From assembly GCA_937924035.1 (NCBI GenBank), contig CALDTK010000067.1:1-49356 (forward strand): a stretch of DNA of 49,356 bases. Reading direction: 5' to 3'. The notes beneath the pieces were generated by a model, which was not told where the DNA came from, ran no database searches, and worked only from the letters and a program-made list of their open reading frames with translations. Both the position numbers and the translations under genes were made by a program. Source of the stretch: an uncultured Saprospiraceae bacterium (GTDB taxonomy: Bacteria; Bacteroidota; Bacteroidia; Chitinophagales; Saprospiraceae). Shown here piece after piece: positions 1 through 1,719 of the stretch (position 1 is the first letter of the stretch; the number at the start of each line of letters is the position of its first letter).

Positions 1-1719
1 AACGCCAGAATTCTCGCTAAAGTCCTCAATTGCCTCAATGTCGGAGACGACTTCGAGCCGTGTAATACATGCGCCAACTGTGTTGCTTTCAACCAAAATG
101 CAAGCTTCAACATATTCGAGCTAGATGGTGCATCCAACAACAAGGTAGACCACATGCACCAGCTCATGGAGCAGGTGCGTATTCCTCCTCAAAGCGGTCG
201 CAAGAAGGTTTACATCATCGATGAGGTTCACATGCTTTCCGCATCAGCCTTCAATGCTTTCCTAAAGACACTGGAAGAGCCTCCAGAGTACGCTGTCTTC
301 ATTCTTGCGACGACCGAAAAGCACAAGATTCTACCGACAATCTTGAGCCGCTGTCAGGTTTACGATTTCCACCGAATTCGCCCAGCGGACATGGTCGCCC
401 ACCTTGAAGGAATCTGCAAGGAAGAAGGTCTTTCTGCCGAAACAGAGGCATTGCACCTTGTTGCTGAAAAAGCCGATGGAGCGCTGCGTGATGCACTCTC
501 TATTTTCGATCGTTTAGTATCCTCTTCTCCTGACAACACGCTCAGCTATCAACATGCCGCCGAGCAACTCAACGTCTTAGATCACAGCACCTTTTTCCAA
601 GTTGTAGATGCACTGCTTCGAGAAGATGCAGCTACACTCTATTTACAGTTTGACCAAGTGCTCAGTAACGGCTTTGAGCCTCAACCTTTTCTTGGTGGTT
701 TAGCAAAGCACTTACGACAACTCTTCGTTTGCAAAAGTCCACAGACGCTTAAGCTCATTGAAGTGAGTGACGCACTTCGTCAACGCTATGCTGAGCAAGC
801 AGCCTTATGCGGCATGAGCTTCCTTGTCAATGCACTCAACCTTGCCGCAGAATGTGATTACCGCCTAAGGCAAGCAGTCAATAAACGTCTACATGTAGAA
901 CTTTACTTGGTGAAAATGGCTTTCGCCAGTCGCACTGTGAGAAGAGAAACAATTGCTACTCCCGCCGATCAAGTGGCGCCGTTGGCGGCAGCACCAGCCC
1001 TCCAAAAAAAAAGTGAGGAGGTAATTAATGCTACCTCTGCGCCTGTCCAGCAAACCACTGATTCGCAGTCAGAAACACAACCTAAGGTAAAACAGCCACT
1101 GGTAGCAAAAGAGCAAGCAACCACCGCCACTGGCTATGTCGTCGACCCTACGCCATTAGAAATAGAAACCGTAAAAGAGCCAACTGAACCTGCAAAAGGT
1201 GAAGCTATTGCCGCAACTCCAGCTCCAACCCTTAGTCCTTCTGCAGCCGAAGTAAGTAGACAAAAAAAGAACGCCCCTCCTAAGATATCTGCCCTCCCTT
1301 CAATCTCTTTTGATGAGGATGAAGAAGACGATGATGTCGCGTTTGTCAAGCCTGAAACACTCACACTGAGTCAATTACAGGCCATCTGGGACAAAGCTGC
1401 CGCCAAACAAAAGGACAGCGTCAAGTCCATGATGCGCAATACAAAACTCGACTATGCGTCACCGCTGCTTCGCGTACTCGTAGGCAGCAAATATGCACTT
1501 AATGCCCTGCGCAATGACGCAACAGATATCCGCGACATCAAGTCAGAACTCAACTGTCCTGATCTAAATATCGTCATTGAGTTTGACCCCGAAATGGCTC
1601 CAAAAGAAGCCCCGAAGAAGGAAATTATCGGTCCAGCTGAGCAGTATCAAATCCTTATAAACGTCAATCCTGCGATTGATGATTTGCGCAAGCGAATGAA
1701 TTTGGAACTAGATGAGTAA
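1..1719 (+). CDS. dnaX: DNA polymerase III subunit gamma/tau (5' end outside window)
   Basis: Clamp-loader ATPase that loads the beta sliding clamp and, as tau, links polymerase cores in the replisome. The reading frame is open from base 1, so the N-terminus with the Walker A loop lies upstream. Visible are the four-cysteine zinc module (LNC at codon 15, then CNTCANC), the GASNN segment, Walker B IIDEVHML, the LKTLEEPP segment, and ATTEKHKILPTILSRCQ (sensor 1 and arginine finger). Domain III ends near codon 310 at HVELYLVKMAF. A Pro/Ala/Gln/Glu-rich linker with an acidic patch (EDEEDDD) follows, then a C-terminal tau-like domain of about 120 residues. Family identity is certain. An A9 tract at 1004-1012 and an A7G tract at 1262-1269 lie in the linker and could give a short gamma form (separate entry). 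The spacer to lgt is about 140 bases. Confidence 0.97.
   Translation, partial: NARILAKVLNCLNVGDDFEPCNTCANCVAFNQNASFNIFELDGASNNKVDHMHQLMEQVRIPPQSGRKKVYIIDEVHMLSASAFNAFLKTLEEPPEYAVFILATTEKHKILPTILSRCQVYDFHRIRPADMVAHLEGICKEEGLSAETEALHLVAEKADGALRDALSIFDRLVSSSPDNTLSYQHAAEQLNVLDHSTFFQVVDALLREDAATLYLQFDQVLSNGFEPQPFLGGLAKHLRQLFVCKSPQTLKLIEVSDALRQRYAEQAALCGMSFLVNALNLAAECDYRLRQAVNKRLHVELYLVKMAFASRTVRRETIATPADQVAPLAAAPALQKKSEEVINATSAPVQQTTDSQSETQPKVKQPLVAKEQATTATGYVVDPTPLEIETVKEPTEPAKGEAIAATPAPTLSPSAAEVSRQKKNAPPKISALPSISFDEDEEDDDVAFVKPETLTLSQLQAIWDKAAAKQKDSVKSMMRNTKLDYASPLLRVLVGSKYALNALRNDATDIRDIKSELNCPDLNIVIEFDPEMAPKEAPKKEIIGPAEQYQILINVNPAIDDLRKRMNLELDE
1004..1037 (+). promoter_or_regulatory. Candidate programmed frameshift element in dnaX
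   Basis: Nine A residues (1004-1012) lie in frame as CAA AAA AAA AGT. A -1 shift reads AAA AAG TGA and stops at 1014-1016. Five bases after the tract, GAGGTA (1018-1023) pairs perfectly with TACCTC (1032-1037) around an 8-base loop. The truncated product would end just after domain III, as gamma does in Escherichia coli. Use of the site is inferred. Confidence 0.55.

Follow-up and report, generated by a model that had tools for sequence, protein, structure and literature searches.

The closest described counterpart of the gene examined here is dnaX of Thermus thermophilus, in which slippage on a run of nine As, with stops in both of the other frames, yields gamma from mis-registered messages of a single tau ORF (Larsen et al. 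2000, as presented in the relevant passages of PMC1088944 and PMC5009743). A Thermus-type system is marked by mRNA with mixed A-run lengths and by gamma and tau in a ratio of about 1:1, and efficient slippage in vivo has been described in bacteria for runs of nine As (passages of PMC5009743). In Escherichia coli, where gamma arises by -1 ribosomal frameshifting, a hairpin and a Shine-Dalgarno (SD) element have roles in the shift (passages of PMC5009743 and PMC3711429); the E. coli K-12 gene, read here for contrast, carries six As in its A_AAA_AAG site, which AGGGAG precedes; its -1 frame stops after a single codon, and its +1 frame runs on for 11 codons. A further architecture is the two-ORF dnaX, with a poly-A tract at the gamma end and a tau that requires a change of frame: the GeneTack survey section of Antonov et al. 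(2013; PMC3711429) covers 17 such genes from 12 genera, all two-ORF and mostly with 10 As (nine species), proposes slippage for them and leaves aside any alternation with relatives of the single-ORF form. For dnaX of Blochmannia vafer and floridanus, a poly-A indel is thought to be corrected by slippage, this tract belonging to an endosymbiont gene and lying within the part found only in tau (passages of PMC3017870). Slippage in dnaX is therefore already known as a kind, the two-ORF form having been reported in 2013. In the open-licence literature we found no description of slippage across dnaX of the Bacteroidota and no experiment for the group; new here are the member described below, the breadth of the tract across the phylum, the apparent selection on out-of-frame stops, and a tau frame that has switched repeatedly.

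The gene lies at the edge of a stretch of 49,356 nucleotides from an uncultured Saprospiraceae bacterium (the window), where it occupies positions 1-1719 of the forward strand, the strand of all features given below, with its 5' end lost at the contig edge. The full frame, open from 1 to 1719, corresponds to the tau form of DNA polymerase III tau/gamma, as identified from the ORF, Pfam matches to DNA_pol3_delta2, DNAX_ATPase_lid and DNA_pol3_gamma3, a TIGR02397 score above the cut-off, and best-scoring PDB relatives that are E. coli tau/gamma chains by title and alignment. Clamp-loader domain III, the last domain that gamma would retain, spans 562-951 (Pfam residues 188-317). The original prediction placed a tau/gamma switch in the linker just after this domain, and the placement is correct, since domain III ends at residue 317 and the tract of nine As (1004-1012; codons 335-338 of the partial frame) starts in codon 335. 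The tract is read in the dnaX frame as CAA AAA AAA AGT, a TGA at 1014-1016 closes the -1 frame, and a 6-bp stem formed by GAGGTA (1018-1023) and TACCTC (1032-1037) begins five bases past the tract, all as first described; to these we add a TAA at 1022-1024, which closes the +1 frame at once. As proposed, gamma would end at the TGA when the message has gained one A or a -1 shift has occurred, and at the TAA when the message has lost one A or gained two, or when a +1 shift has occurred.

The window gene thus resembles dnaX of T. thermophilus in its nine As, its single ORF for tau and its nearby stops in both other frames, and differs from it in that the tract follows domain III directly. With E. 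coli it shares the gene itself, an A run and a gamma stop right after the site, but it has nine As instead of six, no upstream element like AGGGAG that could be seen, and a +1 frame that is closed rather than open. As a single-ORF gene it is unlike the two-ORF genes of PMC3711429, and unlike that of Blochmannia its tract stands at the gamma end.

The A9 run in the window dnaX is beyond chance. The organism's own genome (4.11 Mb, both strands) holds 34 overlapping A9 matches that merge into 30 runs, an expectation, by arithmetic, of about 0.001 for any 300 nt of a single strand. When the synonymous codons of the 60-codon linker are shuffled, at least nine As arise in 5.7% of draws for the window gene, where AAA makes up about 44% of the Lys codons outside the tract, and in 4.3% for its sister. 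This sister is the corresponding locus (L302), 86% identical, in one other genome of the genus (G061). Between the two, CAA AAA AAA AGT GA is unchanged within a diverged linker: in 40-codon blocks, with gaps scored as mismatches, identity is 0.77-0.89 except in the three that run onward from the tract, where it is 0.54, 0.43 and 0.64. Both out-of-frame stops lie in the sister at the distances found in the window, 1 and 3 codons, its TAA amid different surroundings, and the sequence at the position of the stem differs, so that the stem is absent. Conservation in relatives, which the original prediction took as its measure, holds for the tract and the -1 stop, preserved inside the diverged linker of the sister, and fails for the stem. 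Among the other A9 runs of the organism's own genome, six (L145, L151, L153, L155, L163 and L164) fall in open frames of 191-364 codons, on the sense strand, and may be regarded as candidates for further slippage genes.

To place the window gene among its relatives we drew on DnaX search matches at the level of the family (60 of 61 genomes, some of them fragments or a paralogue), genus (2/2), order (77/79), class (77/80) and phylum (78/80); these sets overlap, and 262 distinct loci were read after removal of four duplicates (L062, L174, L187 and L197). Two genomes (G008, G020), nine of 48 rows of the phylum search that were without a locus, and G150 of the class search fell outside the set, and L063 (G054), L054 (G026) and L002 (the organism's own genome) had no N-terminal dnaX match. 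The count of tract presence, over 255 assessable loci, excludes L053, L060, L095 and L242 (at a contig or stretch end), L259 (from a 0.5-Mb genome), and L173 and L232; the last two, which carry the tract and have less than 450 nt downstream, are also excluded from run-length, frame and later counts. L243, with an A10 further down at codon 403, was scored as tract-less.

Runs of nine to 12 As at codons 295-360, after domain III, were found in 213 of the 255 loci: 51 of 58 at the family level, 68 of 70 at the order, 63 of 75 at the class and 29 of 50 at the phylum level, plus the window and its sister. At the phylum level the families differ, with the tract in none of four loci each in f79 and f78, in 9/9 in f89, and in 11/11 in f83, which may be the Chlorobiaceae (as f75 may be the Flavobacteriaceae). 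The tract is evidently dispensable, since 42 of the 255 loci lack it, and the breaking of the tract in relatives, which by the original prediction would count against it, is seen in part, at least nine As being missing from seven of the 58 family members and from 21 of the 50 phylum-level loci. A further 22 named loci, among them the sister itself, were kept out of the statistics. In 15 of these, a tract of A9-A11 lies in one long frame with both others closed within 4 codons, and two more carry A10, one cut at a contig end (L313) and one without a long frame (L321); five lack a run of at least nine (two Barnesiella, one Bacteroidaceae, one Bacteroidales and one Lachnospiraceae). In L321 all three frames close within 21 codons of the A10, which points to a broken gene or an assembly fault, and in the Lachnospiraceae locus (L323), by title the sole locus in the set from outside the phylum, the linker holds no run of six or more As.

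The lengths of these runs follow a distinctive pattern. Across 236 usable loci the longest A run of the linker measures six or seven in 22, nine in 69, 10 in 131, 11 in 13 and 12 in one, and is never eight (0/236). This gap is specific to the linker, as runs of eight do occur elsewhere in the same genes (340 kb of tract-bearing genes, with 42 runs of eight and seven of at least nine). The tract begins in codon phase 1, 2 and 0 in 134, 49 and 30 of the 213 loci, respectively, and is conserved as nucleotides rather than as codons. The presence of the tract alone is nonetheless less improbable than it looks, since with the Lys codons of the actual proteins, synonymous shuffling would already be expected to produce at least nine As in 56.1 of the 161 single-ORF loci, about 35% of draws.

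For the stops that follow the tract, the protein was kept, synonymous codons were shuffled, and closure was counted within 6 codons of the tract. Both of the frames that do not lead to tau are closed in 175 of the 213 loci, against 54.1 expected. The loci are related, and we therefore rely on family means, which over 73 families are 0.779 against 0.244 expected, and give no p-value. Neither control places 25 and 45 codons downstream, which show no excess of closure (0.113 against 0.118 expected), nor the matching place in tract-less loci, with both frames closed in just 0.124, reproduce this. The excess concerns each frame: among the 161 single-ORF loci the frame of one extra A (k=1) is closed in 159 (100.0 expected) and the alternative on the +1 side in 136 (71.1 expected). 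Where tau occupies another frame, the alternatives are closed in 43 and 38 of 45 loci for k=1 (18.4 and 24.1 expected) and in seven and four of seven for k=2 (5.1 and 2.5 expected). When the window gene is shuffled by itself, both frames end inside the 6-codon limit in 59.5% of draws (a probability of 0.595); its own stops are not significant singly, and the case rests on the set of loci. Taken over that set, the out-of-frame stops after the tract appear to be under selection in the phylum.

A further line of evidence is that the tau frame itself moves. Of the 213 tract-bearing loci, 161 encode tau in the genomic frame, 45 in k=1 and seven in k=2, so that the Thermus-type single ORF seen in the window gives way in 52 of 213 to a split dnaX, in which the tau frame differs from the gamma frame, as in the two-ORF genes described in the GeneTack section of PMC3711429. 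Split genes occur in 26 of the 73 families, nine of which contain both forms, and also in one-contig genomes (e.g. G256, G277 and G261). On a FastTree tree the fewest tau-frame switches number 32 with all branches, 24 with branches of support below 90 collapsed and 17 with those below 95 collapsed, and 20 label shuffles at support 90 give 33-42 switches against the 24 observed; as reconstructed, the tau frame switched at least 17-32 times. Closely related loci illustrate the step. In genus g192 the tau frame differs between a locus with A9 (L284) and one with A10 (L290) that agree at 17 of 17 flanking positions, and in genus g66 a locus with A12 (L128) agrees at 13 of 17 flanking positions with two that have A11 (L126 and L131), the tau frame having moved accordingly. 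In the same genus L130 also entered the comparison with L128 (A12 vs A11). A gene that is obliged to make tau, and is yet split, must change frame during expression.

These comparisons make it highly likely that transcriptional slippage is programmed at the A9. RNA polymerase would realign on the A run and produce dnaX mRNAs with nine, more or fewer As; messages with nine As, or with nine plus a multiple of three, would be read through to tau, and out-of-register messages would run into a stop one or three codons past the tract; the gamma so made would consist of the clamp-loader part, domains I-III, and lack the C-terminal part of tau. Slippage in the polymerase, the making of both proteins and a working role of gamma in the clamp loader are what we infer for the window gene, along the route described for T. 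thermophilus. Closure of both frames, the jump in run length from seven to nine, the indifference to codon phase and tau frame, and the lack of enriched structure 3' of the tract together fit polymerase slippage of the T. thermophilus type better than -1 frameshifting of the E. coli type. A tau/gamma switch at the A9, as originally proposed, is strongly supported by the comparison in its Thermus-type alternative; the E. coli-like half, with its stem and -1 shift, is unsupported, since the stem is missing from the sister, structure is not enriched 3' of the tract, and the +1 frame is also closed, which a -1 shift has no need of.

That E. coli-like reading, in which tandem tRNA-Lys slips by -1 on A_AAA_AAA (1005-1011) with the aid of the stem and terminates at the TGA, is very unlikely. 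The window does offer an in-frame X_XXY_YYZ heptamer, an immediate -1 stop and a stem that can fold; the -1 stop is the nearest one, and its frame (k=1) is that closed in 159/161 single-ORF loci. The own genome, 85.6% complete, shows one tRNA-Lys gene (UUU) among 28 tRNA matches, which as far as this incomplete genome goes would be the state of E. coli, T. thermophilus being said to have two Lys tRNAs. The stem, however, does not stand up as a stimulator. Folded alone, with an additional G-U pair (1017/1038), it reaches -8.4 kcal/mol, and its z of -3.1 in a tight cut falls to -1.15 and -1.95 in 60- and 57-nt stretches; it is not beyond chance. The 60 nt 3' of the tract show no enrichment of structure over 213 loci (mean z -0.30 against -0.10 at the control place; fraction below -2, 0.061 against 0.066), and no Rfam family matches the window at the gathering score. 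The weak z in wider stretches, the sister without the stem and the missing 3' enrichment lead us to regard the stem-loop at 1018-1037 as probably incidental and to reject it as a stimulator. Nor does inspection by eye reveal an SD-like element at 981-1003, where one would be expected about 10 nt upstream. For a -1 shift nine As would be superfluous, as would closure of the +1 frame, yet the longest run is never eight and the +1 side is closed in 136 loci where 71.1 are expected, and such a shift cannot reach tau in the seven k=2 loci. In the 60 nt upstream of the tract the mean z is -0.44, with 9.9% of the 213 loci below -2 (control place -0.10 and 6.6%), a weak hint of an upstream RNA element in some tract-bearing members.

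Two tract-less members of the family, L026 and L059, may speak for ribosomal shifting in places: both carry A_AAA_AAG some 40-60 codons past where the tract usually stands, and the -1 frame stops 1-2 codons on. A tract-less locus of another family in the same class, L219, has A_AAA_AAG at the usual place and a -1 stop after three codons. The 60 nt 3' of the site fold weakly in all three (-4.4, -5.2 and -7.7 kcal/mol, respectively), and most of the 33 tract-less loci scanned are without an A_AAA_AAG site; ribosomal frameshifting may have replaced slippage in these three, or their sites may be chance. Two further candidates within the window gene were rejected. In the tau linker, the A7 run at 1262-1268 offers A_AAA_AAG, and the -1 frame stops four codons later at a TAA (1281-1283), but this site is not conserved, since the sister reads CTA AAG AAG. 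An internal start, formed by the SD-like AGGAGGT at 1016-1022 and an ATG at 1028-1030 six bases later, opens a +1-frame ORF of just 20 codons (1028-1090); the sister lacks it, and it is probably chance.

Sliding of the ribosome on poly-A in either direction, ending at either stop on a uniform mRNA, would account for the closure of both frames, and sliding with termination at out-of-frame stops has been shown for E. coli ribosomes (passages of PMC4363877). In the same passages, however, it is robust at A11 and gives little product at A9 or A10, the lengths of 200 of 214 tracts here, and as an explanation of these loci we judge it comparably improbable. It is still the nearest rival to polymerase slippage, on its own or acting together with it, the A11 threshold being that of E. 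coli, another organism. That the tract has no programmed function, a Lys-rich AAA linker with splits from sequencing or assembly error or homopolymer hypermutation, is extremely improbable: shuffling does give at least nine As in about 35% of draws over the 161 single-ORF loci, many loci come from draft genomes, and dnaX is missing or cut in some assemblies, but the same shuffling reaches just the 5.7% and 4.3% given above for the window gene and its sister, the gap at eight is confined to the linker (42 runs of eight and seven longer ones occurring elsewhere in 340 kb), neither errors nor Lys codons explain an excess of stops that is absent downstream and in tract-less loci, and split genes are found in the one-contig genomes G256, G277 and G261 too.

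To our knowledge, the route of gamma production has been established by experiment in few bacteria, and our comparison predicts a slippage route for most of the sampled members of a large phylum. Slippage that gives a truncated product has been considered hard to judge by comparative analysis (a passage of PMC1088944); the testing of out-of-frame stops against synonymous shuffling, joined with tau-frame switching, provides such a comparative judgement. Under programmed slippage, a split dnaX that carries an A9-A12 tract is predicted to be an intact gene rather than a pseudogene, and an essential gene is predicted to be able to tolerate one-base indels at one spot. On balance, we favor the view that dnaX of the Bacteroidota may be in effect a frame-neutral essential gene: slippage on A9-A12 would fill three frames, one leading on to tau and the other two ending immediately in gamma, so that the genomic number of As could drift and the tau frame would be nearly neutral. 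The window gene would then be a single-ORF snapshot of this cycle, and slippage may be the ancestral route to gamma.
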